Positions 1,497-29,300 of a stretch of 34,133 nt of DNA are shown here, one piece after another. Both the position numbers and the translations under genes were made by a program. Source of the DNA: a virus; the IMG/VR virus record IMGVR_UViG_3300046001_006957, positions 1 to 34,133 of that record. One strand, given 5' to 3'. Positions within the stretch are counted from its first letter, which is position 1. Every line of letters begins with the position of its first letter. The notes beneath the pieces are model-generated. The model had not been told where the DNA came from. It made no database searches and saw only the letters and a list, made by a program, of their open reading frames with translations.

Positions 1497-1892
1497 ATGG
1501 TATTACAATTTTTTACAAAACATCGTCCAAATTTAGACATTCCATTCTTTGAAGATTCAGATGAGGGCAAGGCACGATCAGATGCAATAATTCAATTGGC
1601 TAGCGACCATCCTGAACTATGCCTAGGAAGAGACACTTCGCCAATTCCTGCAACTGAGTTAACATGGACTGCTACATGGACATTCGCAGGCCTAGATGAA
1701 TTTAACCAATTTATAGTATTAGCACAGGAGGCCGATGTCACGTTGAGAGTCGATCGAGCTAGATATTATATAAGAAATGGACACACTCTAGTCATTGAAC
1801 ATCAAAACGAAGGCGACGCAGAAAGATCATTAAATATAAACATTGGGCCCGACGGTGTTCGTGGGCCCAATGGTATCATAAATTTTATTTAA
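1497..1892 (+). CDS. Small hypothetical protein, 131 aa
   Basis: No family was recognised. I chose the ATG at 1497 because GGAG stands eight bases upstream and a late promoter motif precedes it; the frame is open further upstream to 1326, but that part lies across the divergent gene and has no ribosome-binding site. The protein is acidic in its N-terminal third, has a Thr/Trp-rich stretch (TWTATWTF) around residues 60-70, and ends in a Gly-Pro-rich tail (GPDGVRGPNG). The codons for this tail form a strong hairpin. Its stop overlaps the stop of the convergent fibre gene by a few bases. Its place between a radical SAM gene and a fibre gene suggests a late protein, but the function is unknown. 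Confidence 0.65.
   Translation: MVLQFFTKHRPNLDIPFFEDSDEGKARSDAIIQLASDHPELCLGRDTSPIPATELTWTATWTFAGLDEFNQFIVLAQEADVTLRVDRARYYIRNGHTLVIEHQNEGDAERSLNINIGPDGVRGPNGIINFI
1841..1872 (-). terminator. Strong hairpin between convergent genes, likely terminator
   Basis: A perfect 10-bp stem, CATTGGGCCC paired with GGGCCCAATG, encloses a 12-base loop. On the minus strand it begins 17 bases after the stop of the fibre gene (stop at 1889) and is followed at once by T-rich sequence (TTTATATTTAA), as expected of an intrinsic terminator. On the plus strand a T-rich run at 1884-1891 follows after a gap, so it may act less well in that direction. Confidence 0.6.
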
Positions 1893-4225
1893 GCTACTGT
1901 GTAAGCTGGTACAACATACTCAACACCGTTTACTTTGATCTTAAAGTAAGTGGCAGGAGTAACGGGCAAAGCACTAGCAACACCGGCAGCGCCAGCGGCA
2001 CTTACTGCTTCTACCATAAAATCCACAGTTCCTGTTCCGCTAGGTTCAAGTACAATATCATCATTGCTGTTCAGTGTGCTGATATTATTTTCAATGATCT
2101 GTAAAGAACCGGTACTTAGACCATAATTAACTGTTAGTTGACCGCTGCCTTCGATGATAACATTTTCTCGGAGTGAAGTAGAGCCAGCACCGTTGTTTGA
2201 TGCAAATACTATTTTAGATAACAGTGAAGTATTGCTCGGTGCAGGATCAACAACAAGAACACTTATTGCCGCCCCTGTTACATAACCACTTGTGCCGTAT
2301 CCTGTGAATGTAATGTCAGCAATATCATCACCAGTGTTGACAATTATCGGAGAAGTGACAGTACCTCTAGTTCTTGTAAAGGCAAAGTTTCTTGCATCTT
2401 GAGACTCATGAGACTGAGATAGATTAACTAAGGTTGTGCCAGCCGAATTAACAGAAAAAGTTGAAGGACCAAAAGAATTAGCGGTGACAGCATTGGTTGT
2501 ATTGATTGCTGCAAAAGTACTAGTACCTGTTGAGGCTGTAACATTACCAGTTAAATTTCCTGTGACATTACCTGTGACATTACCGGTCAGCGCACCAATC
2601 AATGTACCTCTTAGAACACCATCAACTGCGTCAACAAGAACCGATGAATCAAAACCAAACACACTGCCTTTCATATCTCCACTATGATAACCAGTGCTAT
2701 CACCAATTAGAGAGCCAGTCACTGTACCAACTAAGTTACCAGTTACTGTACCAATGGCAGCATCGCCTACAGTGAATACACCTGTACCCGGATTAAACTT
2801 AAAGTTGCTGTTTGTGTAAATTAAATTATCACCAGATTGATCGTCAAAGAACGAAATAAAATGGTCTGCACTAGTTCCCGAAGTATTGACCGTGATAGTT
2901 GTTGCGTTTGCACCAGCTGCTGTAGTAATAGCACTTCCACCTACTGTAGAGCCTGCTGGTAAATTAATAACAGTTCCGTTACCACTAATAGTAGCATTGC
3001 CGATCCATAGGGCGTTGTCGCCTTCAGTCAAATATAATTTACCAAATTTCTTTGTGTAAGATCCAAGACTGTATGACTCGCTGGTACTAGGAAATACATC
3101 ACCGCCTACAAATAATTCATTTTCAAAAGTTACATCGCTGCTGAAAATCATGGCCGGAGTAACAGTGATTGCACTACTATCAGCACTGTCAATCAACGAT
3201 GTAAACAGATTAGTTCCTGTTAAGTTTGTGGCCGAAACAGATGTAGAATTAATTGTGGTCGCATTTAAAATGCTCAATCCTAAGGTATTTGTGCTAGGCT
3301 GATAAGTTAAGTTAGTGTCTGTTCTAATACTTTCGTCGCCACTGGAATTTTGAGTAAAACCAATATAGTGAGTAGCTGCTGATGATCCGGAAGCAACTAA
3401 AGTTACTGTGGTTGCTATGGTTGCTGAACTAGCTGTACCTGTTAAGTTTCCGGTAACATTACCAGTTAATGCACCAATCAATGTTCCTCTTAGAACACCA
3501 TCTCTAGCATCAACTAAGGTTGTTGAATCATCTGCAAAAACTGAACCAGTTAAATCTCCGTGGAATGTACCGTTGGTTGTGTTAACTAAAACTGTACTAT
3601 CTATGCCTACAATATTTCCAGAAATTTCAATATTATAAATATCGCCTTCATTTAGACCTACCGGCTGGCCGCCGATCGTAGAGCCAACTGGAAAGTCAAT
3701 GGCTGAACCTGTGGATGTTATTACGGCATCGCCTAGGTATATTGAACTACCACTTAGATAGATATCTCTAAATCTGTTTGTAGAAGTTCCTAGATCATAT
3801 GCAATATTTGTTTCGGGAATAATGTGCCCTTGAGGTACAAAATTACCATAAACAGTATGAGTCTCAGAGTTAACAATTAATCCTGAATCGTCTGCCCACA
3901 AATTTCCTTTGAAACCTTGATCAGCAACAATTAGGCCAATATAATCTGATAAATCTTGTGCTACTGTGGCTTGTAATCTGTCACCAACGTAGGCAAATGT
4001 AACGCCACTATGTACGGTATTGTCGCTGAGGCTTTCTCCCAAGAACATCTTGGCAGTGGTACTTCTAGCGTCGCCGACGCTGAAGTTGGTCACAGGTAGT
4101 CCTCCGAATGCGGAACCGTTGCCTACGTAAACGCTTCCCGTGGTTGTGTCAAAAACAAGTTCGCCCGCTAATGGTATTGTGGCCACCCTATCAGCTGTGG
4201 GACCTCTTCTAATCTGTAAAGGCAT
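1889..4225 (-). CDS. Tail fibre protein, 778 aa, repeat-built
   Basis: The N-terminus (MPLQIRRGPTADRV, then GELVFDTTTGSVYVGNG) matches the short beta-rich domain that starts many phage fibre and tropism proteins. The rest is low-complexity Gly/Thr/Ser/Asn sequence typical of beta-structured trimeric fibres. Two modules occur twice: a YDLG/YSLG...LYL...G(S/T)T(I/V)GG unit near residues 142-190 and 385-430, and a SVF-DDS...DGVLRGTLIGALTGNVTG unit near 228-264 and 520-570. The first module recurs in the fibres at 29937 and 31678. AGGAG stands just before the ATG, and a GTAAATA late motif lies about 33 bases upstream. Host recognition is the likely role, by inference. No chaperone or enzymatic domain was seen. 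Confidence 0.88.
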   Translation of the reverse strand: MPLQIRRGPTADRVATIPLAGELVFDTTTGSVYVGNGSAFGGLPVTNFSVGDARSTTAKMFLGESLSDNTVHSGVTFAYVGDRLQATVAQDLSDYIGLIVADQGFKGNLWADDSGLIVNSETHTVYGNFVPQGHIIPETNIAYDLGTSTNRFRDIYLSGSSIYLGDAVITSTGSAIDFPVGSTIGGQPVGLNEGDIYNIEISGNIVGIDSTVLVNTTNGTFHGDLTGSVFADDSTTLVDARDGVLRGTLIGALTGNVTGNLTGTASSATIATTVTLVASGSSAATHYIGFTQNSSGDESIRTDTNLTYQPSTNTLGLSILNATTINSTSVSATNLTGTNLFTSLIDSADSSAITVTPAMIFSSDVTFENELFVGGDVFPSTSESYSLGSYTKKFGKLYLTEGDNALWIGNATISGNGTVINLPAGSTVGGSAITTAAGANATTITVNTSGTSADHFISFFDDQSGDNLIYTNSNFKFNPGTGVFTVGDAAIGTVTGNLVGTVTGSLIGDSTGYHSGDMKGSVFGFDSSVLVDAVDGVLRGTLIGALTGNVTGNVTGNLTGNVTASTGTSTFAAINTTNAVTANSFGPSTFSVNSAGTTLVNLSQSHESQDARNFAFTRTRGTVTSPIIVNTGDDIADITFTGYGTSGYVTGAAISVLVVDPAPSNTSLLSKIVFASNNGAGSTSLRENVIIEGSGQLTVNYGLSTGSLQIIENNISTLNSNDDIVLEPSGTGTVDFMVEAVSAAGAAGVASALPVTPATYFKIKVNGVEYVVPAYTVA
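2550..2660. repeat. Internal DNA repeat of the 778-aa fibre gene, copy 1
   Basis: This stretch encodes VDAVDGVLRGTLIGALTGN followed by repeated GNVTG/GNLTG units. It is nearly identical at DNA level to 3438-3540 (shared run AGAACACCATC and flanks), indicating a fairly recent duplication within the gene. This copy has two extra TGNVTG units compared with the other. Confidence 0.75.
3438..3540. repeat. Internal DNA repeat of the 778-aa fibre gene, copy 2
   Basis: Second copy of the module at 2550-2660, encoding VDARDGVLRGTLIGALTGN. Differences are mostly silent or conservative; the number of short TGN(V/L)TG units differs between the copies. Confidence 0.75.
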
Positions 4226-6714: not shown

Positions 6715-7293
6715 TTATAGTAGTCCGTTATCTTCTTGTCCCAGTTTTGAAAAACTCCACGATCTTTCTGTACACTGCCAACAACGATTACAACGACCAA
6801 TAGATTGTTCCGTACAAGAATGAGTAATGTAGATCAAATCTTGTTGATTATGCTTAAACATCATATCAATTATATCAGTTTTGTACAGATCAACGAATGG
6901 AAATATAATTCTAGGATCATTGGACTTTTTATCTCTCTTAGGAGCTCCGGGCAAATGATCTAATTCGGGAGGATTTTGATTAATTCCTATAAACAAACGA
7001 TTTACTAGATAGTTATTAAAAATGTCAATCACTGCTGTGGTACTTTGTACTCTATGAGGAGCTCTTGGGTCACCTACATAAATTGTTTCCGGAATACTTA
7101 GATTAAATTTTTTATTAAAATGCTCGATTATCGGATTAGCATAAAAGGCAGAGCCATCCGTTTTATTAATTGTAAATGGTTGCAAGTTAATTTTTGGTTC
7201 TTGTTGTATAAGTAGATACAATAGTATTGCACTATCTAGCCCTCCAGATAGCATTATACCGTATTTTTTGTCAAGGTCAATTGGTGGAATCAT
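6715..7293 (-). CDS. QueC-like PP-loop ATPase, 192 aa
   Basis: The PP-loop SGGLDS at residues 16-21 marks an adenylating N-type ATP pyrophosphatase. Near the C-terminus C160, C168, C171 and C174 (C-x7-C-x2-C-x2-C) closely match the zinc site of QueC, the 7-cyano-7-deazaguanine (preQ0) synthase, where the first gap is eight. The protein is shorter than typical QueC (about 220-230 aa), and I do not see the family's central substrate segment, so the substrate may differ. The start lies within a 12-base palindrome (7289-7300) just below a TATAAATA late motif, and no ribosome-binding site is visible. Another queuosine-pathway-like gene (QueD family) lies at 15887. Confidence 0.75.
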   Translation of the reverse strand: MIPPIDLDKKYGIMLSGGLDSAILLYLLIQQEPKINLQPFTINKTDGSAFYANPIIEHFNKKFNLSIPETIYVGDPRAPHRVQSTTAVIDIFNNYLVNRLFIGINQNPPELDHLPGAPKRDKKSNDPRIIFPFVDLYKTDIIDMMFKHNQQDLIYITHSCTEQSIGRCNRCWQCTERSWSFSKLGQEDNGLL

Positions 7294-7299
7294 CGATGA

Positions 7300-7307
7300 T
7301 ATTTATA
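7300..7307 (-). promoter_or_regulatory. T4-type late promoter TATAAATA (exact)
   Basis: TATAAATA on the minus strand is identical to the T4 late promoter element. The expected start would be within one or two bases of the ATG at 7293, which would make the transcript almost leaderless. Confidence 0.6.
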
Positions 7308-11694: not shown

Positions 11695-11889
11695 ATGAAC
11701 TGGGAACTCTATGAAGTATGGGCCGAGGATGAAGACGGCCATGAGGAGTTGATTGATACAACTAACAGCCGTAGCCAGGCTTTCAAATTGGCGCAAGATA
11801 CTCTTGCCGAAGGGTATATTGCTAGTATCGTCTATTTGGAAAACGAAGAAGGCGATTTGGAAAAGGTAAAACGATTTGAAAACGGTTGA
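11695..11889 (+). CDS. Small acidic hypothetical protein, 64 aa
   Basis: From the ATG at 11695 the protein starts MNWELYEVWAEDEDGHEELI. AAGGAG at 11676-11682 lies 12 bases upstream; a TTG at 11686 would be closer to it and would add three residues. The pattern of short strands and one helix (SRSQAFKLAQDTLAEG) recalls small phage regulatory or inhibitor proteins, but no family is certain. The consensus promoter for the next gene begins inside its last codon. Confidence 0.68.
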   Translation: MNWELYEVWAEDEDGHEELIDTTNSRSQAFKLAQDTLAEGYIASIVYLENEEGDLEKVKRFENG

Positions 11890-11914
11890 CAACACTAGTA
11901 AACGATGCTATAAT
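11886..11914 (+). promoter_or_regulatory. Perfect sigma70 promoter TTGACA-N17-TATAAT
   Basis: TTGACA at 11886-11891 and TATAAT at 11909-11914 with a 17-base spacer, all full consensus. The expected start is near 11921. ACAGGAG lies before the ATG at 11946. The -35 box overlaps the stop of the preceding gene. Confidence 0.88.
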
Positions 11915-11945
11915 ATTAGTATTGTTAAACACACAGGAGTGAATA

Positions 11946-13118
11946 ATGGCTACTAAAGCAAAACATTTGGCAGATGCAAGAGCCTCTAAGGGTCGAGATT
12001 TTAGTCCAAAATGGGATGGCCACGAAGCTTGGGATTCTAATCAATTCCTACGACACTTTCATGGTGCTATGGCCTGGTATCGTTTGGAAAGTTCTAATAA
12101 AGAACTCAAACCCAAAGTTATCAATTGGATGAGTGCTAATGGTTATACCAAAGCACAAATTGCTGATTTTAAAAAGACCAAAGACAATCGTTGTGGAATG
12201 ACCGTAGGTGCTATTGCTGCCTGCTTGTTAAAAGGTATGCCACCAGTTCGTGCAGACTTCAACGATGGCCGTAGCACAGCAGTTTGGTTGGCTAATGAAG
12301 TTTCTAAGATTGTTGCTGAAGGCAAAGACGACATCGACGAAAGCGAAGAGGCCAAAGTCGAAGTTAAAAAGGATGTTTATACACCTAGCATTCAAGAACG
12401 AGTCCGTGATGCCAGTATGTTGATGACTGAAGAAATTGAAACAGCCATTGAAAATTTTCAAACAGATCCCGAAGCGTTTGACCCCAAAGCATTTAAGATT
12501 CTAAATATGCTGAAAGCCAAACAGGCCAAGGCCGCTCATGCTCGTATTATTCGTGAGTTCTATACTCGCAATCTTGAAGAATTAATTGAAGCCGCCTCAA
12601 CTAAAGATGAACAACTTAAAGAAGCCTACAGCCACTTGAGCAAGGTACAACTGCGAAAGATTACTGCGTTCTATCAAGAGATTGTCAGTGCCTGTGAGAT
12701 GTTGGCACAAGAAGCCAAAGTCAATCGCAAGCCCAAAGCTAAAAAGGCTGTGCCTGCTGAGAAGATTGTGGCCAAACTCAAGTACAAAAAAGCAGACGAA
12801 CCGTTGAAACTAGTGTCAATTAATCCTGCAGATATCTTGGGTGCAAAAGAACTGTGGACCTACAATACCAAAAGTCGTAAATTGGGCAAGTATGTTGCCT
12901 CGGAGTTTGCAGATCTCGGAGTAAAAGGTACAAGTATTGTAAACTTCGACGAACATAAGAGTGTACAAAAGACTCTTCGCAAGCCAATTGATCAGCTCAA
13001 AGAGTTTAAGGCAGCAGGAAAGGTTGCACTACGCAAGTTCTTGGATGATATCAATGCTGTAGATACCAAGATGAACGGTCGTATCAACGAAGAGATTATG
13101 TTACTCAAAGTGCAGTAA
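11946..13118 (+). CDS. Hypothetical phage protein, 390 aa, Lys/Ala-rich
   Basis: A soluble, strongly helical protein. Residues 1-90 form a compact region with WDGHEAWDSNQFLRHFHGAMAWY; 140-260 are charged helices that may be coiled coil; a Lys/Ala/Pro linker (NRKPKAKKAVPAEK) leads into a C-terminal domain with SINPADILGAKELWTYN. I recognise the general type as a conserved unknown protein of large aquatic phages but can assign no function. It has its own consensus promoter at 11886 and a good ribosome-binding site, so strong early expression is expected. The basic linker may contact nucleic acid (inference). Confidence 0.82.
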   Translation: MATKAKHLADARASKGRDFSPKWDGHEAWDSNQFLRHFHGAMAWYRLESSNKELKPKVINWMSANGYTKAQIADFKKTKDNRCGMTVGAIAACLLKGMPPVRADFNDGRSTAVWLANEVSKIVAEGKDDIDESEEAKVEVKKDVYTPSIQERVRDASMLMTEEIETAIENFQTDPEAFDPKAFKILNMLKAKQAKAAHARIIREFYTRNLEELIEAASTKDEQLKEAYSHLSKVQLRKITAFYQEIVSACEMLAQEAKVNRKPKAKKAVPAEKIVAKLKYKKADEPLKLVSINPADILGAKELWTYNTKSRKLGKYVASEFADLGVKGTSIVNFDEHKSVQKTLRKPIDQLKEFKAAGKVALRKFLDDINAVDTKMNGRINEEIMLLKVQ

Positions 13119-13125
13119 AACAGCC

Positions 13126-13162
13126 TCTGCCATAGTCATGATAAATACACGACTATGGCAGA
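13126..13162 (+). promoter_or_regulatory. 12-bp inverted repeat enclosing a late promoter and the start codon
   Basis: TCTGCCATAGTC (13126-13137) pairs perfectly with GACTATGGCAGA (13151-13162). The 13-base loop contains most of a late motif, GATAAATA, at 13140-13147, and the right arm contains the ATG of the fibre gene at 13155. RNA read through from the early promoter upstream would fold and hide the start codon. RNA begun at the late promoter would lack the left arm. Confidence 0.8.
13140..13147 (+). promoter_or_regulatory. T4-type late promoter motif GATAAATA
   Basis: Seven of eight bases match TATAAATA. Transcription would start about 13153, almost at the ATG of 13155. It lies within the loop of the inverted repeat 13126-13162. 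Confidence 0.6.
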
Positions 13163-14291
13163 AAACAATCTCGACAAAGCTCTCGCATATTTAGGCTCCA
13201 GCCTAAATACCCTTGTTACACAGGCCAACGGCCCTGTAGATCTAGACAATCTACATACAAGAATACTCAAACGCAGTCTAACTGGTGACCATTTAATGGG
13301 CGGCACCATTGTTAATTTTGCCAGTACAGGCATCAAAGACGAAGCAAGCTCACAACAACTAACAATAAAGGATTCCAGCGTAGAGATTAAAAATCTTACA
13401 GTTGGCGCAGTCAAAGGCAGTCTATCGGTAGAGAATACCATTACTGCTAGTACTATTAAAGTTGATGTTCTTGAAGTAAGAGAACTAAAAACTGACTTAA
13501 AATTAGGGCAAAGTGCCCCATTAGAAATAACCGTTACCGGTGGCGACACACTAGTCGGCAAAGGAATGTTGTTGAAAGGGCAAGGCTCAACCAAACAACT
13601 GATATTCAGTATCAATCCAGACAAGTTTGTCAGTACAGAACATTTTGAATTAATCAAAGATCGCGAATATCGAATCGACGGTAATCAGGTATTGTCGGCA
13701 ACCGCTCTAGGTCTAGGCGTTGTTAAAAGCAATCTTAGAGAAGTTGGCCGTTTGCGTGGCTTGATAGTCGATGGTAGTGTTAGTCTAGATCAATATGTAT
13801 TTTACAACAACTCCACTAACCGATTTGGTATTGGTATAGAGAATCCCAATGCTGGTTTGTCAGTATGCGAGAACGGTGTTGAAGTCATTATTGGCACTAA
13901 GGATCAAACCAAAGGTGTTGTAGGAACTTTTGCAGCCGCAGGACTTGACCTAGTCACTGATAATACTTCAAGAATAAACATCGGAGCCAGCGGAAATATC
14001 CTATTAGGTAACATCAGTGAAGGTCCAGTCCAAGTGTCTGTACATGGAAAGCTGGCCATTAGAGTCAATGTTCCGGATCCCGATGTTGACCTTCATGTCA
14101 ACGGACCTATTCGATTCCACGGACATCTACATGTCTATGCGGACTCTGCTCCAGACTCAGGAACTTACAAAACTGGTGACATTGTATGGAACACTGCTCC
14201 TAGAACAGGCGGCCATGTTGGTTGGGTCTGTACTCGTGCTGGAAGTCCAGGCGACTGGAATCCGTTTGGTCCAATAACACAGGCAGGATAA
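13155..14291 (+). CDS. Fibre/spike-like structural protein, 378 aa
   Basis: Beta-rich repetitive sequence, with a central SNLREVGRLRGLIVDGSV segment and a C-terminal module GTYKTGDIVWNT...GHVGWVCTRAGSPGDWNPFG that is common at the end of phage fibre and spike proteins. Residues about 130-378 align along their whole length with the next gene's product (for example KGQGSTKQLIF / QGQGSTKQFIF), so the two are tandem paralogues. The first 130 residues are specific to this copy. The start is set by the ATG inside the inverted repeat; no ribosome-binding site is visible. A late virion protein is likely. No enzymatic motif was seen. Confidence 0.82.
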   Translation: MAENNLDKALAYLGSSLNTLVTQANGPVDLDNLHTRILKRSLTGDHLMGGTIVNFASTGIKDEASSQQLTIKDSSVEIKNLTVGAVKGSLSVENTITASTIKVDVLEVRELKTDLKLGQSAPLEITVTGGDTLVGKGMLLKGQGSTKQLIFSINPDKFVSTEHFELIKDREYRIDGNQVLSATALGLGVVKSNLREVGRLRGLIVDGSVSLDQYVFYNNSTNRFGIGIENPNAGLSVCENGVEVIIGTKDQTKGVVGTFAAAGLDLVTDNTSRINIGASGNILLGNISEGPVQVSVHGKLAIRVNVPDPDVDLHVNGPIRFHGHLHVYADSAPDSGTYKTGDIVWNTAPRTGGHVGWVCTRAGSPGDWNPFGPITQAG

Positions 14292-14292
14292 C

Positions 14293-15153
14293 ATGTCAGA
14301 TAAACTAACACAAGCAGCAGAATTATTATCGCAGGCACTTCGAGAAATTACACAAGAAAACACCACCAGTCAAAGTGACCGTGTTGTTGTATTCAGTGCA
14401 GACAAAGACGGCAATAACTACGGCAAGGGTCTAATGTGGCAAGGCCAAGGATCAACCAAACAGTTTATCTTTGCTAAAGGTGATAAATTTGTCAGTACTG
14501 AATCCATTGAACTAGTAAAAGACCAAACATTTAACATCAACAATACTCCGGTACTCAGTGAAACTCAGCTAGGTACTAGTGTTATAAAAAGTAACCTGCG
14601 TGAAGTTGGCAGATTACGAGGACTAGTTGTTGACGGAAGTGTCAATATTGGACAATACATTGTTTATAATAACAACAATAATAGATTAGGTCTAGGAACA
14701 GAAAATCCCAATGCCGCATTAAGCATTGCCGAGGACGGTATGGAACTGATGTTAGGCAGCAGTACAGGCGGTCGAGCAATAATTGGAACATTCGGCAGCA
14801 ATGATCTAGATATTGTAACTGACAGTACACCTAGAATTACCCTAGAGGGTGGCGGCAATATCAAATTAGGTAACAAGGCATTTGGACCAATACAGGTTCA
14901 CGTACATGGCAAATTAGCTGTAGGGGTCAAAACTCTAGACAGTCGAGCAGATGTTCATGTTGCAGGTGCTATAAAATTCAACGAAAGACTACATCAATAT
15001 CTAAATTCAGCTCCCGACAACGGAACCTACGAGCGGGGATCAGTGGTTTGGAATACTGAACCGGATGTTGGGCGATGTGTAGGATGGGTATGTGTTCGTG
15101 CCGGCAGTCCGGGAACATGGATGCCATTTGGCGAGATCAAACAAAGCGGCTAA
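14293..15153 (+). CDS. Fibre/spike-like structural protein, paralogue of 13155, 286 aa
   Basis: This protein repeats the C-terminal 250 residues of its upstream neighbour: GKGLMWQGQGSTKQFIF, SNLREVGRLRGLVVDGSV, then NRLGLGTENPNAALS and a closing GSVVWNTEP...VGWVCVRAGSPGTWMPFG. The unique N-terminus is a short helix (LTQAAELLSQALREI). It begins one base after the preceding stop, with AGGA before the ATG, so the pair is co-transcribed. The copies have diverged considerably, so the duplication is old and both are probably kept for function, perhaps as two parts of one baseplate or fibre structure (inference). Confidence 0.82.
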   Translation: MSDKLTQAAELLSQALREITQENTTSQSDRVVVFSADKDGNNYGKGLMWQGQGSTKQFIFAKGDKFVSTESIELVKDQTFNINNTPVLSETQLGTSVIKSNLREVGRLRGLVVDGSVNIGQYIVYNNNNNRLGLGTENPNAALSIAEDGMELMLGSSTGGRAIIGTFGSNDLDIVTDSTPRITLEGGGNIKLGNKAFGPIQVHVHGKLAVGVKTLDSRADVHVAGAIKFNERLHQYLNSAPDNGTYERGSVVWNTEPDVGRCVGWVCVRAGSPGTWMPFGEIKQSG

Positions 15154-15886: not shown

Positions 15887-16393
15887 ATGGCAAATCTTCA
15901 ACCCGTACAATACAAGTACACAAGCACCAAAGAATATCACGACGCCTTTCCCTGTGCATACAGACAATGGCGAGCTGATAGTCACTGTAATTTAAATCAT
16001 GGCTATTCATTTAGCATGAAATTTTACTTTGGCACTAACGACCTAGATGTTCGCAATTGGGCGGCAGACTACGGTGGCTTAAAAGAACTTAAAAAGATCC
16101 TAGAAGATCAATTTGATCACACTACACTAGTCAGTGCCGACGATCCAGAACTAGAATTCTACAAAGAAATGGAACGCCGTAAGTTGGCAAAGCTGACTAT
16201 TCTTCCTGCACTAGGTTGCGAAGCACTAAGCGACATGCTCTACAAGTATGTCAATGGTGTTTACATTCCAGACATGTGGGGTGATGGTGAAAGCAAACGC
16301 CTATGGTGCTATCGTGTAGAAGTTCGCGAAACACAGGCTAACATGGCATTCCGAGAAGGACATCGTGAATGGAATGAGGATCTATTTGCGTGA
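15887..16393 (+). CDS. queD: QueD / 6-pyruvoyl-tetrahydropterin synthase family protein, 168 aa
   Basis: The family core is visible: the catalytic Cys region DSHCNLNHGYSF (C34, H38), DYGGLKELKKILEDQFDHTTL with the Asp-His pair D77-H78, and a final strand VEVRETQAN with E148. In QueD this enzyme turns dihydroneopterin triphosphate into 6-carboxy-tetrahydropterin, an early step of preQ0/queuosine synthesis; PTPS relatives make biopterin precursors. The usual zinc motif HGH reads HGY here (Y40), so one zinc ligand is altered; H33 or H18 may compensate. The acidic insert after DH (about 82-105) is longer than in E. coli QueD. AAAGGAG precedes the ATG. The symbol denotes the family; the reaction is not certain. 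Confidence 0.78.
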   Translation: MANLQPVQYKYTSTKEYHDAFPCAYRQWRADSHCNLNHGYSFSMKFYFGTNDLDVRNWAADYGGLKELKKILEDQFDHTTLVSADDPELEFYKEMERRKLAKLTILPALGCEALSDMLYKYVNGVYIPDMWGDGESKRLWCYRVEVRETQANMAFREGHREWNEDLFA

Positions 16394-16589: not shown

Positions 16590-17432
16590 ATGCGTACATT
16601 TAACATTCACAATATCACCATAGGCAACGATCATCCATTTGTGTTGATCGCAGGCCCCTGTCAAATTGAGAGTCAAGATCATGCTCTCGATACAGCTGAA
16701 CGAATTAAACAAATTACCGGCGAACTAGGAATTAAATTCGTTTACAAAAGTAGCTTTGATAAAGCCAATCGTTCTAGTGTCAGTACTAAACGAGGACTAG
16801 GTATCAAAGAAGGATTAGAAATACTCAATACAGTCAAGCACAAACTTGGAGTGCCTATTCTCACCGATATTCACGAGACCTGGCAAGCACAAGAAGTCAG
16901 CGATGCAGGTGTAGATATTTTACAAATTCCTGCGTTCTTGTGTCGTCAGACTGACTTGTTATTGGCAGCAGGGGTTACTGGTAAAGCAATCAATGTCAAG
17001 AAAGGTCAATTCCTTGCTCCTCACGACATGAAAAATGTTGCCGAAAAGATTGCTAGCACAGGCAACGAACACATTATGTTATGTGAAAGGGGATACACTC
17101 ATGGATATAACAATTTGGTTGTGGATATGCGTAGCCTACCTATTATGGCAAGCACCGGGTATCCAGTGGTCTTTGATGCCACACATTCTGTTCAGCAACC
17201 CGGAGGGCTGGGATCAGTCTCCGGAGGGGATCGCACTATGGTCCCGTACCTCGCGAGGGCAGCAGTGGCCACCGGATGCGTGAGTGCTGTGTTCATGGAA
17301 ACTCACGAAGATCCGGATCGTGCGCCCAGCGATGGTCCTAACATGATCAAGCTAGATAACTTAAAAAACATACTTGAAGAATTGGTTGCCATAGATGAAA
17401 TTGTCAAAAGAAGTAAGAGCCAGTCTAAGTAA
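16590..17432 (+). CDS. kdsA: 3-deoxy-D-manno-octulosonate 8-phosphate synthase
   Basis: Condenses arabinose-5-phosphate with phosphoenolpyruvate to give KDO-8-phosphate, the precursor of the KDO that links lipid A to LPS core sugars. Family motifs are complete: [21 protein letters not shown] (about 52-63), [17 protein letters not shown] (165-181) and DATHSVQ. The metal ligands C24, H199, E237 and D248 are all present, so this is the metal-dependent class rather than the E. coli metal-free type, which has Asn at the first site. At 280 aa it is full length. Its end overlaps the glycosyltransferase gene by 38 bases. A phage copy suggests changes to the host surface or to sugar supply during infection (inference). 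Confidence 0.96.
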
Positions 17433-18534: not shown

Positions 18535-18685
18535 CAAAGATACCATGCCCGATGAATTGTACAATGCGCTGTTGAAGCACTTTGTCAACGAAGCTGTTGG
18601 GCTAGGAGTAGAAGTAACCAAGTTTACCGAATTTAACGATTGGGTAATTGAATGTACAGTAAATGAGAAAGCAGCGGTACACTAA
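18518..18685 (+). CDS. Small hypothetical protein, 55 aa
   Basis: A short frame from the ATG at 18518 to TAA at 18683-18685, beginning MKIQFNKDTMPDELYNALLK and ending DWVIECTVNEKAAVH. It fills the gap between two operon members, overlapping the one before by 17 bases and sharing TAATG with uvdE, which supports it as a real gene. It looks like one amphipathic helix plus two strands. No family recognised. Confidence 0.72.
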   Translation: MKIQFNKDTMPDELYNALLKHFVNEAVGLGVEVTKFTEFNDWVIECTVNEKAAVH

Positions 18686-19710
18686 TGACTAAACGCATAG
18701 GCTTTGCCTGCAAGTGGATAGATGGTCCTAGCCAAATCGACGGTATTAAACAACAGGATAACTGTAAGCAATACAATACTGGCAGTACCACTGTTGCCTG
18801 GTTAAATAGACAAACTAAAGAAGTAGCAGAACAAAAACTATGGGACCTAATGGTAGGTAACATAGAATCTACTCGCAAGTTGGTAGAATTAGTTGGAGAA
18901 CAACATGAAGATCTTAGAATGGTTCGACTGTCAAGCGATATACTTCCTGTATATACTCAGCAGGATTGGTGCGGGTTTTGGCGGCTTCCCGATGTCCGAG
19001 CCTATTGCGAAAGAGCATTTGGAGAAGTGGGAGCTTTGGCTCGCAAGAATAGTGTTAGGCTTAGTATGCACCCTGGTCAGTTCACTGTGCTTGCCTCTAG
19101 TAATCCGGGCATTGTAGAACGATCGATTGAAGAATTTGAATATCATACTGATATGGCTCGCTGGATGGGCTTCGGTAAGACATTCCAAGACTTTAAGATC
19201 AATGTTCATATCTCAGGCCGCGAAGGTCCCGAAGGCATTCGAAGGGCATTGTCTAGGCTTAGCCCCGAAGCCCGTAATTGTATTACAATCGAAAACGATG
19301 AAATGACTTGGGGTATCGATTCTAGTATTGAACTAGCAAAAGATTGTGCTCTAGTACTAGATATTCATCACCATTGGATTAACTCAGGAGAATATATTGA
19401 CTCGAATGATGACCGTGTTAAAAGGATTATTGATAGTTGGCGTGGTGTGCGCCCTGTTATACATTATAGTCTTTCACGGGAAGATGTTGTTATTGGCCAT
19501 GCCACAGACACCTTTCCCGCCCTTGATGCGCTGATTGCACAAGGCTACAAAAAACAAAAGCTCAGAGCTCACTCAAACTTCTACTGGAATACAGCAGTGA
19601 ATGAATGGGCTCTGAGCTTCCGTGATAACTTTGACATCATGTGCGAAAGCAAGGCTAAGAATCTAGCCAGCTTTGCACTCTACAAACAAAGTCTTAAACA
19701 GCTGGCTTAG
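18685..19710 (+). CDS. uvdE: UV-damage endonuclease UvdE
   Basis: A TIM-barrel endonuclease that nicks DNA 5' of UV photoproducts and some other lesions, starting excision repair without UvrABC. The family signatures are in order: NTGSTTVAWLN (31-41), RLSMHPGQF (125-133), ENDE (203-206), LVLDIHHHW (223-231), HYS at 260-262 and RAHSNFYWN (294-302); these supply the His/Glu/Asp metal ligands. The length of 341 aa is usual. The start shares TAATG with the preceding gene. It would help a phage exposed to sunlight repair its own genome. It converges with the basic protein gene, with 17 bases of overlap at the 3' ends. Confidence 0.94.
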   Translation: MTKRIGFACKWIDGPSQIDGIKQQDNCKQYNTGSTTVAWLNRQTKEVAEQKLWDLMVGNIESTRKLVELVGEQHEDLRMVRLSSDILPVYTQQDWCGFWRLPDVRAYCERAFGEVGALARKNSVRLSMHPGQFTVLASSNPGIVERSIEEFEYHTDMARWMGFGKTFQDFKINVHISGREGPEGIRRALSRLSPEARNCITIENDEMTWGIDSSIELAKDCALVLDIHHHWINSGEYIDSNDDRVKRIIDSWRGVRPVIHYSLSREDVVIGHATDTFPALDALIAQGYKKQKLRAHSNFYWNTAVNEWALSFRDNFDIMCESKAKNLASFALYKQSLKQLA

Positions 19711-20388: not shown

Positions 20389-23300
20389 ATGGCAAGAAAA
20401 GTAATTGATACAGGTATTGTGGGCAATGACGGTACCGGTGATAGCATACGCGACTCGTTTCGCAAGGTAAATGAAAACTTCAGAGAGCTCTATGGCGCAC
20501 TTGGTCTAGGCAGTAGACTTCGCTTTGCTACTCTCGAAGATGCACCTATAGGCGGCACCGGTGACGACTATTATCAAGGATTCGAAAATGCGTTGGTAGC
20601 TGTTAATCCCAGCGAATCGGGATTGATATTCAAGCAACTGACTGCAGGAACCGGTATCAGTTTGAATTTTACCGATGAAAATGCAATTCAAATTACCAAC
20701 ACAAGATCTTCAGTAGCGAACGATCCTTCTCCTAGTTTAGGAGGAAATCTACAGGCACAATCAGGTAGCACTCAATATCGTATCCAGTCGCTAGCCACTC
20801 CTATAACTTCAGATGAGGCAGCTAATAAAGGCTATGCAGATACCAAAATTGCCCTAGGAGGTGTTAATGCACTAGATCCAGCAGCTGGCAATGTGGCCAA
20901 TAGTGCGTTTGGTACCATGACCGGACCGTTGATTTTATCTAGAAATCCAAGACCAGAAGATGATGTTACCTACAGCGGTTTAATTGCTGCCACAAAAAAC
21001 TATGTCGACAATGCAGGTTTTGCATCAGTGGCTAATCTATATGTTGCTACCTCTGGCTCAGACGAAAGAGTTGGAGTTGGGGCCAGCACACAAGGTCGTG
21101 CTCTACCATTTGCCTATAGAACGCTAGAAGCTGCTCTAAAGAAAGCTGAAGAAATTATTAAATCATCACCTCCTGAAATCGGACCATATCGTAAGGTACT
21201 AACATGGACCAATCCAGATACTGGCGTTATCAGCAATTGTACACTGACTGATATTGCAGTATCCCCGGATAATGGCGTAGGATTTGCGGGTCGTGTTACT
21301 CTAACTATTGATACGATTAGATTAGTAGCAGGTGGTTACAACTTTAAGGTAAATGAAGTTTTAAGAATTAATAAGGTAGGTGGTGCCACAATTGATGCTG
21401 CTACTGTGAGAATTCTCACAGTAAACAGCGAACCCGGTACTCCGAACGGACCGATTCTTACATTTCAGTTATTAACTGGTGGTAAATTTGACCTAACTTT
21501 ACCTGTAACAAATGTTAGCGGAAACATCGAAGTTGGAGTTGCTAACGGAAGTGAATTTGGAACTAGTGCAGAATTTGCCATTACCTACAAGGTTAGCACT
21601 GCCGTTATTACTTCTGCAGGTTCAGGCTATAGTCTAGTGTCAGTTCGCGTAACTCCTGATATATTGGACACCGGTGCTGTTGCAGGTTTTGGTTTTGCTG
21701 ACATTGTTGGTGGGGCGATTGCTGGTATTACCATTACAGATCAGGGTAGCAAGTTTACAGAATTTCCCGACCTTGTGGTAACATTACCTAGATTTGAAAT
21801 CTATACTGGGGGACAAAGAACTGATTTTACCGGAGATGTAACCACTGACAGTGCTGTGGCTCGTAGAGGCCGTGACATTCGCGAAGGCCTTTACTTATTG
21901 GGCGAGACTTCTGGAGCATTGGCACAAATTCTTTCGCACCAAGGTGAATTGGATACTACTGGCAACGAACTGTTTGATGTTGACATCAAATACGGTACAT
22001 TTGTCAACGGGGAGGCAATTTCCTATGGCGATGTAGCTAACACGCGACAGGTAGCAGTTTTTGTTGAAACTGGTATCTATTATGAAAACTTACCGCTAAA
22101 GGTTTCACAAAACGTAGCTGTTATTGGCGATGAGTTCCGCCGAACAATTATTCGCCCTAAGAAAGGCATGAGCTCAAGCCCTTGGGCATTTCAATATTTT
22201 AAACGAGATCGAGTTATTGATGGTTTAAATACTTCAAGAAACGACCTCAATGCTGCTAGAGAAGACACATTTGGCTATCACTACCTAGGCAATGCAGGTG
22301 AGCCAGTTTATCCCGAAGCAAACATTGATAACAAGGGTTTCTATAGATCGGCCGCAGACTTATTAGCTCTCAATAAACAATTTATACAAGAAGAAGTTAT
22401 TGCCTGGATTAACAAACAGATAGTTGAAGAAGTTGCTCCGTTTGTTGATTTTGAATATAACAGCGACATCTGCAAACGAGATGTAGGACTATTAATTGAT
22501 GCTATGGTGTTTGACCTTAGGTATGGCAGTGCTCCAAGAACTATTTCGGCAGCACTAAAATACAAAGATGCAAACAATGCCAGCGCGGTACTGGCTGTTA
22601 CCGAACAGTTAGATCAAACCATTGCAGCTATTCGCAGATTAGAAACTGTTGCACAGGCTGTAATCCGTAATATCGAAATTGTAAACTCAGAATACCTTGC
22701 TCCAATTACAGGCACCCTGATTACCTATGTTGAGCCGCAGGTAATTGACACTGCTTATACCGCAGAAACTGGGGCCGGCGGCACCCCGGTTACTGTATCC
22801 GCAGTAACCAGAGGTAATGAAACCACAATTACAACATCTCCTGCACACGGGTTGGCTAGTGGAGAAATTGTAACTTTCCGCAACATGACCGGTCTAACTG
22901 AATTAAACGGAAACAGCTATTGGATAACAGTAGCAAATAGTACACAGTTTAATATATATACCAACTCTGCAAGATCAGCAAACGTTGTTAGTACATTGTT
23001 TGGCGCATATACTGCCAGCTCAGGAGACTGTGTGCCCAACGGCGGTGTTATCGGTAGACTAACTGATGTCATTGTTGATATCATCGACACTTCTAGTGAA
23101 TCTTATAATACCCCATTAGACAACGATCAAATAGATGTGTTCTTGATGAATGATGCTACAATTATTCGTGCTATGACAATACAAGGCGGTGGAGGATTTG
23201 GTCTTGTACTAGATCCCGAGGGACAGATTCTTGCTAAATCTCCGTATGCACAAGAAGGTGCTGTATTTTCAAAGAGTACAGGACGACACACATTTAGTGG

Positions 23301-26300
23301 TGGTATGTTTGTTGACGGATTTGCAGGCAATATTAAATTTAGAATTACCAACAAGATCAGTACCACAAGACTGGTAGTTGATCAACTAAAAAGATTCCCG
23401 CAACTGCCTGCTTCATTTATTGTTCAGGATACAGTTTATCGCATCAACTATGTTAGAGATTTTGAATACGGAGTCGGAGTCAACGGTAGTACTGCAACAT
23501 TTGTTCTAGACGAAGTTACTCCGTGGCCATTTGATGTTTTTACCTATGAAAAAGAAATATGTCGAAGAGATGTAGGATTAATCATCACAGGCCTAGGCTA
23601 CGATATTGTCCTAGGAACTAACTATCACAGCAGAAGAGCTGCCCAATCATATAGAGAAGCCAATGCCGAAATAGTCATCAACGATCAACTAGATTTAACT
23701 ATCCGGGCCATTGACCGAGCGCACGATCGTGCAACTGCTACATTAGAAGCAATTGCTGTATCATCAGAATACGATCCTAGTCTTGCTGTAGTTGATCAAA
23801 GTAAACTCAACCTAAGAAATATTATTAGACGAGGCAGTACAGCGGCTCCAACATTGAGTATCACTAATCCAACAGGATTAGCTAGTAATATTGCTAATGC
23901 TAAAATTCTTTTGGTAGCCAACACAGAATTTTTAAAACAGGTAGGAACTGGTTATATTACCACTACTTATCCGTCCTTGACATTTTCTGCGCCGGATAGT
24001 CAGAAGGACATTGAGCGCATACTAGATAGTTTAATCTATGACCTAGTCTATGGTGGTAACAGTGAAACTCGCAAAGCTGCCTTTGCCTACTTCAACGGTG
24101 TCGGCGATGCATTGGTTATTCAACTGTTGTCTACTCAGCCAGAAGCCTGTGAAAATGCTCTAACCACAGTTAAAAATGCAGCTAAACAGGTTATTGTGAA
24201 TACCACAGTGTCTCCTACCTATGGCGCAACCGCAAGTCAGGTAACAGCTTCTGCAAGTGACGGTGCCGTAGCCGGCGAAATCGAAACACTAATGTCTATC
24301 ATCATTACCGCACTAAACACCTATCGTGTTACTGGCGGGGCAGAAGAGGCAAAACTTGCAGCCGCAGTGGCATCATTGCCTGCTGAAGTATTACCAAAAC
24401 TAACAGCAGCATTGGGCGGTTATGATTATGATACTAATCGAACAAATGCTCGTACTGCATTAGAAAGTGCAAAAGTAACCATACAGACTAATGTAATAGA
24501 ATTTGTCGATGCCAATGCCAATGTCTACGAAGTATTGATGCCTGGTAACAGATCAATGTTGTCAAACGACTTTACACAGATCAACGACATGGGCTACGGG
24601 CTGATTGCAGCCAATGGTGGATTGACAGAATGTGTGAGTATGTTTACATACTATTGCTACACTTCTTATTATTCTGTAACAGGCGGACAGATTCGAGGCG
24701 TAGGTGGATCGTCAGCTCACGGTGTGTATGCTTTGGCTGCTGAAGGATCAGACCCGTTAGAAGTTCCAACTCCAGTTGACCTGTATTACGAACTTACACA
24801 GGGTGCTATTGTATATAATGATCTAGGAAGTTACGATAATGATGTTAATGGCTTTATTATCTATGTAACTGACTATGATTATCCTCCAAGAGATCAAAGT
24901 GAAGTTGAAATTGATCACGGTGGTATCACAGGAATAGTAAGATATCCAGTTGTTAGCGCAGTGTCTGAAAGTGATTTCCCTGCAGACTCAACTGGACAGA
25001 AGCTGTATCGTCTGAACTTAAACAGTGACACAGACGGATTGGTAGTAGCAGTACCGAATGGTACTAGAGTCACACTAAGAACTAATAACGAAGTTGTTCT
25101 TACAGGTGGTGTAGTCGGAGTTGCAGTTCGTCCATCAACTGCTTTGAAAATCAACGAATTATTCGACAGTCAACTATATCGTGTTCTAGAATTTGCAGAT
25201 TACTTTCCTCCTGCATTTGAGTCAGTGGTTGTTGAATTTGTCACAGGTGTTGCTACTTTGGTTAGAACTGTTGCTAATCCAGCATCTGTTGCTGCTGGAC
25301 TGTTTGTTGTTGGTAGAGAATATACCATCACAGTTGTGGGCACAACTCCTTGGGGTACTATCGGAGCATCGTCTAGTACCATTGGAGTTGTATTCATTGC
25401 CACAGGCATAGGAACTGGTGACGGTACAGCTCGTCCAACTGCTAAACCAGCTCATGGTCAGAAACCGGGATATGCTATAAAATTTGCAACCAGTGGAACT
25501 TTGCCGGGTGGCATTTCAGCTGGGGACACCTATTATGTTCTTGACGACGGTTTTACTGATTCAACTTTTAGAATTTCATCATCCAAGAACGGCCAGCCAT
25601 TAGAAACTACCAGTGCAGGATCAGGTAGTCATTATTTTGAAGCTACAAAACTTGCGGCTACTGCACTGAAAGACGGTTACAACTATGCCGAGGTCACACT
25701 ATGGCCAAGACAAGAGTTTGTTCCTGTAGCTGCTCCTAGTAATCCAGGTGGTCCTAGACTAGTTGTAGACGCTATTGAATTGGTTAGTGGTTACACATAT
25801 TATATTGTAACCGTGGGAACCACAACTTGGGCTACAGTAGGTGCAGGTGCTGAAACCGTTGGTACTGTGTTTACCGCAACCGGCGCTGCCGTAGAAACAA
25901 CAGGTACTGCTGTAGTCGACTCAGCTCGTTGTACATTTGACCATACCAATGACAGAATCGACAAAAACAGTCACGGATTTGCCGACGGCGATGTCATTAG
26001 ATTTGAAACCAGTGGGCTAATGCCAGCAGGAGTGTTTTCTAGTAGACAATATATTGTTCGAGATTCTGCCGCCAATACCTTTAAACTTTCTAGCTATTCT
26101 GGTGGGCCTGTTATTGAATTTAGTGATGATGGTACAGGAATATTTGCTGTAGGCAAGGTCTTGGGTAGAGTTGGAGACTCCGTACTATCCGTTGTAGAAC
26201 TAGGACCTATTGATGCTGCTCGTATTGTTGGATGTAGATTTACATTCAAGGGTTATAATTATGTTATTACACAATATAACGATGCTGATATAACCGGAGA

Positions 26301-29300
26301 GACCTATGGAGAGATTTATCTTGACACTCCATTACAAGACAGCGTAATTGCCTACGACAGTCCGATTACGCTGTTTGCCGGTGTACAGGCTAGAACAGAA
26401 GACAGTCAAGGCACACTGACCATTCGTATTTCATTGACTCGTGTTACTGGACACGACTTACTAGAAATTGGTACTGGTAGCTATGCCGACACTAACTATC
26501 CAAGCGAGATCTACGGACCACCTGTGCGTATTGCTACAGAGACATTGTTAGATACCACAGGCGAAGTAGAATACAGTCAGGTAGTTGAGCGAGGCGAAGG
26601 CCGTTGTTTCTTTGTAACCACTGACCAATTTGGTAACTTCTCCGTTGGTCCGTTCTTTAGAGTTGACCAAGGTACTGGTACTGTAACATTCTCTGCTAGT
26701 TTGGCATTGAGTAACTTAAGCGGTCTAGGATTCAAGCGTGGTGTTCCAATTGCTGAGTTCTCAACAGATACAACATTTAGCGACAACGCTACTGATACTG
26801 TACCGACAGAAAATGCAACTCGTGGTTATCTAGATCGCAGATTGGGCGTGAGTCACGGTGGCGACAATATTGACGCTGCCAGAATGATTCCTCCAACCAC
26901 TGGTGGCTTCATGGCGCTGAGCGGTCAGTTGGCCATGAAGAACAGTATGAACATGAACGGCTTTAGAATTAGAAATGTAGCCGATCCTGTTGATCCAACT
27001 GACGCTGTAAATCGACGCAGTATTAGTTTTGATGCTATTATTGCCAATAGCTTCCCAGGTCAAGCTGTGGATGCCGGAATGACCATTGCGTTCACTGGAG
27101 CGGGCAACGAAGGTCGTGCTGTAAAGATTGCAGGTGATCTAACTGTACCTAACGACAATGCTGTTACTACAGGTATCGATTCTACTCTAAACGAGTATAA
27201 CATTTATATTAAACCTGATATCATCGACAACGCGAATATCAATAGTGCTGCGGCCATTGCGCAGAGCAAGTTGTCAATGGTTACTGCCAGCACTAGAGCA
27301 GCAGCCGCAGGCATTACACAAGCAGATAGGGGACTTGCTAGTTTTAACTCAGCTGAATTTACACTAACTAGCGGATGGGTTGAACTAAAAACTAACGGCA
27401 TTGAACTAGGTAAATTTGCACAGATTGCCACTGACACTGTTTTGGGACGCAGTGCTGCTGGTACCGGTGATGTCAGCGCAGTGGAATTCAGTACCGTGGT
27501 CGACGAAGGTGGCTCAATCAAGAAGAGTCAATACAGCAGTCTAGGTTTCTTGCGCAGGACTGGTGCTACTACCAGCAGCCAAGATACCGACTATGGTGTT
27601 GTTGAAGCTGTTAGTGCCTATACTGGATTTACTGATGTAAGCGCCAATAACAAATTGGTTATTAGAGACGGTAGCGGTGACATTGGTGTCAGAGATTCTT
27701 ATGCGTCAAGAGCATTCTATGTAGGAACCAGCGCCAGTGCTAACAAGAAACTGGCCGATACCGCGGTAACTGCCACTGGGGGCTCTATTAACTTATACGG
27801 CTTTAGCGGTGTACTAGGTGTTAGTATTGGCGATGGAAGCGTATCTAGTGATAAGGTTTCTAGTTATAGAAATAACAGTCACAGATTCCGTTTAAATGAC
27901 GACAGTGCATTTGCTCCAATACAGGTCAGTTCGATTATTACCCCCGATGTAACCACAGGCGGTGCTAGCACCGCAGGTACATTAACTGGTAATTGGTCAA
28001 TGGCGACTACCAGTAACCTAACATTGGGTACCGGTACTATCAACGCCAGTGCAGGTACTTTACAGTCTATAACACTAACCACAGGTGCAGTAGGAACTGC
28101 TGGTAGTATTACTGGTGCTTGGAGTTTGAACACCACAAGTAAAATTATTGGACAGACCGGCAGTGAAATTGATTTTGCAACAGGTACCATCAAGTCAAGG
28201 ACACTGACCACAGGTGCAACTATCACCACAGGTACATTGACTGGTAACTGGAGTTTAGGATCTGCAAGTAAGATTGATTTCAGCAACGGAACTCTACAGT
28301 CAACAACATTGACTACAGGTGCTACAGCCACAGCTGGTGTTATCACAGGACAGTGGAGTGTTGCAGTAGGATCAAGTATTAATACCGGTGGAACCACTCT
28401 TACAACAAGAGCGATTACTACAGGAGCTGCGGCAACTACAGGAACTATAGAAGGTGACTGGTCGATGTTGACCACAAGTAACATTACTTGGGGCACTGGT
28501 TACCTAGACATGCGTCCAGGAACATTCTATACAGATACGCTGACAACAGGTGCTGCTGGGACAGCTGGCGTTATCACAGGTAACTGGAGTATGGCTACTA
28601 CCAGCAACTTAACTCTAGGTACTGGATACATCGATGCTCGAACAGGTACACTATATACAGATACATTAAATACTGGTGCTAGTGGAACTGCTGGATTAGT
28701 AACCGGTGCATGGACCGTTGACACAGGCAGCACATTTGTTGCTACAACTATTCAGAGTCAAGCAAACTCTGCAACAACCACTGCTACTAATGCCAATACC
28801 ATCAACACAATTGTTCTAAGAGATTCCAGCGGCAACTTCAGTGCTGGAACAATTACTGCCGCTCTAAGTGGTAATGCAAGTACTGCAACTACTTGGGCTA
28901 CCAGTAGAACAATTACCTTGACTGGTGATGTAACTGGAACAGTAAGCGGTGTTAACGGCGGCGGCGACATATCTATTACTACAACAATCAGCGCTGATGC
29001 CACAGTACTAGGTACAGATACAACTGGTCAATATGCAACCACTGTTGCTGTAACCGGAACCGGACTAAGTTGTACTGCACCAAATGCCGCTGACGGTACA
29101 GCCTATACTATTACAAGTAATGCAACTAATTTAAACACAGTCAGTACAATTGTTGCTCGTGATTCAAGTGGTAATTTTAGTGCGGGAACAATTAGTGCTG
29201 CTCTAAGTGGTAATGCAACTACTGCAACTGCCTGGGCCTCCGGTAGAACAATTACATTGACAGGTGATGTAACTGGGGTATCGGCAGCATTTGACGGTAG

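Follow-up and report, generated by a model that had tools for sequence, protein, structure and literature searches.

A hairpin enclosing a T4-type late promoter and a start codon as a probable early/late translation switch in uncultured T4-related phages

Introduction

The closest described systems are the hairpin switches of bacteriophage T4, in which the structure hides the Shine-Dalgarno (SD) sequence and/or the AUG, so that an SD may be non-essential to the definition of such a switch, and about 100-fold less lysozyme is obtained from the long RNA of gene e (PMC3014915; all sources are cited here from excerpts). The T4 late promoter box starts at -13, roughly one turn of the helix upstream of the transcription start (PMC2988020). 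For leaderless mRNAs, start codons that are not exactly at +1 are reported to work less well (PMC4633059).

The window analyzed here is a virus record of 34,133 nucleotides. An earlier reading of it, the original prediction, proposed that a structural gene is controlled by an early/late translation switch and took as its model T4 genes such as e and soc, whose early transcripts carry hairpins that block translation, which agrees with PMC3014915. The same reading placed a 12-bp perfect inverted repeat, a late box across its loop boundary and the start codon of a fibre gene in its right arm downstream of a strong early promoter.

Results

A hairpin over the late box and start codon of a fibre-like gene

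The gene upstream of the hairpin (11946-13118, plus strand) codes for a 390-aa protein of phrog_11903, a family of unknown function, and is preceded by an SD sequence, AGGAG, that can be read off at 11935-11939 (plus). The early promoter predicted at 11886 is a sigma-70-type TTGACA-17-TATAAT at 11886-11914 (plus) with a 12/12 match, and the gene is presumed early, its class being taken from this promoter. Its stop codon lies 36 nt before the ATG of a 378-aa tail-fibre/virion-like gene (13155-14291, plus), which matches the short tail fibre, tail fibre and virion structural families of PHROG (fibre, 4.4e-10), with a family of unknown function as its best PHROG match (3.5e-12) and no family match in Pfam. 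The original prediction had seen no terminator between promoter and hairpin, and a scan of 11700-14400 likewise found no terminator-like site on the plus strand; as far as sequence goes, an early-type promoter with no plus-strand terminator behind it may let early transcription read into the fibre gene. Elsewhere the window codes for a 778-aa protein with an Mtd_N domain (1889-4225, minus), QueD-like and DAHP-synthase genes near each other (15887-16393 and 16590-17432, plus), a UvdE-type endonuclease (18685-19710, plus) and a 3182-aa open frame (20389-29937, plus).

An inverted-repeat search recovered the 12-bp perfect repeat, with a non-coding left arm at 13126-13137, a right arm at 13151-13162 and a loop of 13 nt. 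If one A.C mismatch is tolerated, the arms extend to 15 nt (13126-13140/13148-13162). The T4-type late promoter box GATAAATA (13140-13147, plus), which is retained in relatives, lies inside the loop of the 12-bp version and straddles the loop boundary of the 15-nt-arm version, for which the predicted position across the boundary is true. The right arm contains the ATG of the fibre gene (13155-13157), as predicted, together with the codons that follow. The box ends 7 nt before this ATG and occupies the SD position, so a late mRNA would not be SD-led. Because the T4 late box begins at -13, late transcription is expected to start at about 13153, with the box at -13 to -6 as in T4 (PMC2988020), and the predicted leader would then be 2 nt, not the 0 nt at which leaderless starts are said to work best. 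With the box in or beside the hairpin, an RNA from this putative start would lack the 5' arm.

Folding of the RNA from 13116 to 13200 gave -25 kcal/mol (z -5.55), a value equalled by 0 of 200 shuffles. The AUG has an unpaired probability of 0.00 in the read-through RNA versus 0.56 in the RNA from 13153, which without the left arm has -2.2 kcal/mol over the stretch compared with the read-through form. The late RNA of 85 nt (13153-13237) forms a downstream structure of its own (-17.1 kcal/mol, z -0.94) with the AUG unpaired; by folding, the start region is thus paired in the longer RNA and free in the late one. A second palindrome at 13188-13209 was considered as part of the element and rejected: it is intact in the near-identical L003, reduced to 8 bp in L010 and gone in L004-L007. 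The downstream structure of the late RNA does, however, derive from it.

Dinucleotide shuffling of the window produced a perfect stem of at least 12 bp with a loop of 3-25 nt, at any position, in 6 of 100 cases (1 of 20 in a smaller run), which leaves some room for a chance palindrome without function. The coincidence of a stem with both a late box and a start codon should be much rarer by chance than this stem-anywhere rate, and its position on the box and ATG, together with the conservation and covariation described below, makes a chance origin extremely improbable and largely refutes it.

Stem retention and covariation at the same junction in relatives

When three versions of the upstream protein were used as queries, each matching at least 80 loci, 240 listed loci including the window were obtained, which reduce to 73 distinct 160-nt junctions. 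A NATAAATA box precedes the ATG by 5 nt (27) or 7 nt (24) in 51 of the 73, and by 18-23 nt in a further 10; for the other 12 the script found no box or no start, and at least one of these (L087) was overlooked on account of a box-like match ahead of it. Among 29 relatives picked by hand from 80, the early promoter TTGACA/TATAAT was present with at least 11/12 matches in 25 and at least 10/12 in 27; the two that miss it, L068 (7/12) and L074 (8/12), possibly have mis-set starts.

Three hairpin designs occur at these junctions. Design (a), that of the window's own fibre family, has the box in the loop and the ATG in the stem. Six relatives of this family retain the stem, and all 12 core pairs are kept in 6 of the 7 sequences including the window; L006 has a single C-to-U change that retains a U.G pair, and in L010 one outer pair is mismatched and three further pairs are gained on the inner side. 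Design (b), in other fibre families, is an equivalent stem built from different sequence, in which the box contributes its first bases to the left arm and the ATG is found in the loop or an inner stem. The L029/L032 family has its AUG in the loop (unpaired probability 0.91 in the read-through RNA) and only the following codons paired. Design (c), which belongs to SD-led genes (L055, L189, L207, L217, L186) and is close to the classical T4 form, has the SD in its right arm, and the box is part of the left arm or of the loop. Separately, the upstream gene of L162 is directly followed by a long stem whose left arm contains GATAAATA (z -4.5 over a 78-nt stretch), and no long open frame was recognized behind it.

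Within design (b), the set with a 17-nt loop (7 sequences) had 9 of its 17 pairs changed on both sides. Its covariation score was 0.345 versus 0.155 (sd 0.037) in shuffles, none of 500 being as high, and controls with the arms slid scored at most 0.084. The longer-loop set (12 distinct rows) showed weak covariation: both sides had changed in 2 pairs, a number reached in 155 of 500 shuffles and rising to 3 when the arms were slid by +1. Its score was 0.086 (6 of 500 as high), and 87.7% of its cells were paired (8 of 500 as high; at most 43.8% when slid). Alignment A1 holds 13 of 14 rows, L024 being omitted, and A4 is A2 without L067, which MAFFT had misplaced; L067 entered the hairpin/terminator test and not the 17-nt-loop covariation. 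The request of the original prediction for conserved pairing in related phages therefore meets with a retained stem in the same family and compensatory changes in others.

Over all sets, the departures from pairing were 23 sense-strand G.U and 7 A.C (p 0.005 on the assumption that cells are independent), an excess that points to sense RNA rather than DNA. This bears on the possibility that the palindrome is a DNA operator or a cruciform acting on the late promoter, as the nearness of its centre to the late box might suggest. An element of that kind fits poorly with the G.U excess, with a sequence that is wholly different between families while pairing is retained, and with a box that sits in the loop or in an arm depending on the design, and we consider it very improbable.

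Hairpins and terminators at the junction

The terminator search flags 28 of the 73 junctions, including 18 of the 51 whose spacing is 5-7 nt. Complementarity of the left arm, tested with shuffling confined to the 28 nt that precede the box, reached p<0.05 at 18 of the 33 leaderless-type junctions that lack a terminator, 12 of them at p<0.01, and at 0 of the 18 that have one. Grouped into rough clusters, the figures are 8 of 10 versus 0 of 7 (p 0.0023), although this exclusion is partly built in, because a terminator fills the space that the left arm needs. In the window's own fibre family, L008 and L009 (53% identity) have a terminator and no such stem (L206 in the arm test). L033 and the L053 group (4 junctions) have neither a terminator nor a significant outer arm by the same test.

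The alternation of hairpin and intrinsic terminators at one junction could mean that the hairpin is itself a factor-dependent terminator or pause site, halting the early RNA and not its translation. However, the plus strand has no T-run after the stem, and no plus-strand site was found that combines a GC-rich stem with a T-run as an intrinsic terminator does. For the minus strand, the scan does report the hairpin as a terminator-like site (17 pairs, tail CTGTTTTACT), and this T-run is present in the near-identical L011 and absent in L012, L027, L030 and L031. Furthermore, the start codon is in every design covered or flanked by the right arm, which in SD-led relatives holds the SD. We consider termination or pausing unlikely.

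Lineage and leaderless-type late genes

The phages that share this locus are an uncultured, aquatic-type metagenomic group related to T4. A search with the upstream protein returned 27 phage records, among them phiM12, Cr30, PA5oct, DLP6 and ACP17, all below 60% identity. Two large contigs with the locus, G001 (353 kb) and G004 (282 kb), have genes for a capsid protein of the Gp23 type and for a gp55-type late sigma factor, and neither was found in the 146-kb record G003.

These three large relatives contain 150 NATAAATA sites, 112 of which are followed by an ATG (at least 60 open codons) within 60 nt. By spacing, 49 sites lie at 4-7 nt and 42 at 14-30 nt, beside 3 at 0-3 nt, 1 at 8-13 nt and 17 at 31-59 nt. 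Control motifs placed few sites at 4-7 nt (ATTAATA 5/49, AATAATA 3/45, ATAATAA 6/43, ATAAAAA 5/76), and box-like or overlapping motifs, perhaps variant boxes, gave a smaller peak there (TATAATA 16/74, TTAAATA 15/74, AATAAAT 18/77). SD-like tetramers at -17 to -4 were present in 24 of 42 sites of the 14-30 nt class and in 0 of 49 of the short class, in which the box itself fills part of that stretch. For the short class, matches to the pattern and to its reverse, summed over the two strands, numbered 28 versus 2 in G001, 16 versus 1 in G003 and 17 versus 2 in G004, and 74 versus 12 summed over 16 records including the window. Of 10 short-class genes scanned in G001, 3 match structural or connector families.

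From this spacing the lineage appears to make leaderless late mRNAs, and the window, in which a promoter element replaces the SD just before the start codon, falls within the pattern; the prediction that almost no leader is left was right, the 4-7 nt spacing being common across the lineage. It is not a general T4-superfamily trait. Seven known phages showed no excess over the reversed pattern on both strands (T4 3 versus 4, phiM12 0 versus 1, PA5oct 12 versus 13, Cr30 1 versus 0, OC 3 versus 2, ACP17 1 versus 1, DLP6 1 versus 1).

A hairpin is not a general feature of such starts either. Among 54 leaderless-type sites (3-8 nt; the three large relatives and the window), z was below -5 in 4 and below -2 in 9. 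An early promoter (at least 11/12) lay within 2 kb of 2 of the 4 hairpin sites versus 5 of the 50 others (p 0.077), and 3 of these 7 sites with an early promoter had neither a terminator nor a z below -2. The window has a second leaderless-type start, TATAAATA 6 nt before the ATG of a 192-aa QueC-like gene (6715-7293; start region 7291-7307, minus), where no strong hairpin forms (z -1.39). Leaderless-type late boxes were also seen in divergent pairs, set back to back or overlapping, with an ATG 4-7 nt from each box on the strand of that box, at G001:76466-76527, G001:261109-261138, G003:93189-93238, G010:14631-14677, G013:20985-21046 and G020:11846-11895.

Since leaderless AUGs require a 5' end (PMC4633059), the stem might instead be an RNA-processing site, for example RNase III-like, at which the read-through RNA is cut near the AUG to give a translatable end, and stems of up to 13-17 bp in some relatives would suit this. 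The late box is, however, already placed to create such an end by initiation, and a processing role seems to us highly unlikely.

A phosphoesterase gene of similar design

A calcineurin-like phosphoesterase gene of G001 (PF00149; L091:3846-3900) also gave a strong fold (z -5.29). In 80 relatives (L314-L393) taken from at least 596, NNTAAATA lies 3-8 nt before the ATG in 72. The left arm of the stem runs into the box, and the right arm is formed by the Thr-Tyr-Arg-Ser-Ile codons (codons 4-8); 25 of the 46 distinct arm pairs form at least 10 of 13 pairs. Mean pairing was 8.96 versus 8.13 (sd 0.14) with arms swapped, the maximum of 1000 swaps being 8.57. Base 2 of the box and the third base of the Tyr codon were A-T in 16, G-C in 7, G-T in 1 and T-C in 1 of the 25 paired rows, and A-T in 21, G-C in 8, T-C in 7, A-C in 4, G-T in 3 and T-T in 3 of all 46, counts of rows that are related by descent and not of independent events. 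By these alignments, a promoter box covaries with a synonymous codon base in a design similar to that of the fibre hairpin. A T-rich run, also coding, follows this stem, and a terminator role for it in read-through RNA is conceivable.

Discussion

Our results make it likely that the hairpin is an early/late switch like that of T4 gene e, adapted to a leaderless late mRNA and insulating a late gene from early transcription. This reading, the one originally predicted, is the best supported on comparative grounds because the pairing is conserved and compensated, the early promoter is conserved, terminators replace the hairpin in some relatives and two large relatives encode a gp55-type late sigma factor. 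An early RNA from 11886 would read through the 390-aa gene and fold with the fibre-gene AUG paired. On this RNA, internal initiation and re-initiation after the stop codon would both be poor because the 36 nt from stop to ATG hold no SD sequence, and the hairpin probably stops whatever residual initiation of either kind takes place; we assign it this role because a leaderless AUG needs a 5' end. Late in infection, a gp55-type holoenzyme would start at about 13153, inside the hairpin, and the resulting RNA, without the left arm, would be unable to form the stem. Its AUG, 0-2 nt from the 5' end, would then be translated as a leaderless or nearly leaderless mRNA.

On a broader reading, which we hold with about even confidence, a large uncultured lineage of the T4 superfamily has a class of leaderless late genes that, where they lie behind early genes, can be protected by a terminator or by a co-evolved hairpin that unites late promoter, start codon and first codons in one RNA switch, so closely that a base of the promoter changes in step with a synonymous codon base. 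The T4 hairpin switch, known for a few lysis, capsid-accessory, recombination and homing genes, would thereby extend to a fibre-like gene and to an SD-less, apparently leaderless late mRNA. Aquatic-type metagenomic phages may on this view have a second way of translating late genes, which poses the testable question of what makes infected cells prefer AUGs at the 5' terminus. Where hairpin and terminator replace one another at a single junction, comparison of relatives may also reveal early/late boundaries in unculturable phages. Among the matches listed in a search of open-licence literature, none dealt with leaderless late mRNA in T4-like phages or with such hairpins, which is weak evidence of absence.

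Parts of this arrangement have counterparts elsewhere. Leaderless middle and late mRNAs form a phage class in the Thermus phage phiYS40 (PMC3594737); unlike phiYS40, the starts described here follow a T4-type late box and their leaderlessness is judged from spacing, and the excerpted account of phiYS40 includes no hairpin switch. In mycobacterial leaderless genes a -10 element replaces the SD just before the start codon, and lambda and P2 are named as sources of leaderless genes (PMC4633059), the promoters being unrelated in each case. In I-TevI, I-TevII, I-TevIII, segB and Aeh1 mobE, as here, the late promoter is placed so that the late RNA cannot form the structure that hides the ribosome-binding site (PMC2988022); those hairpins hide a consensus SD in mobile endonucleases, whereas the window's hides the SD-less AUG of a fibre-like gene. 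The closest likeness is to T4 e, soc and 49, in which the long early RNA hides the start region and the late RNA, without the 5' arm, is translated (PMC3014915), as we propose for this locus. T4 e has two late boxes ending 26 and 13 nt before the ATG with AGGAGG between, so that its late RNA is SD-led, whereas the window's gene has no SD and a late box that ends 7 nt before its ATG.
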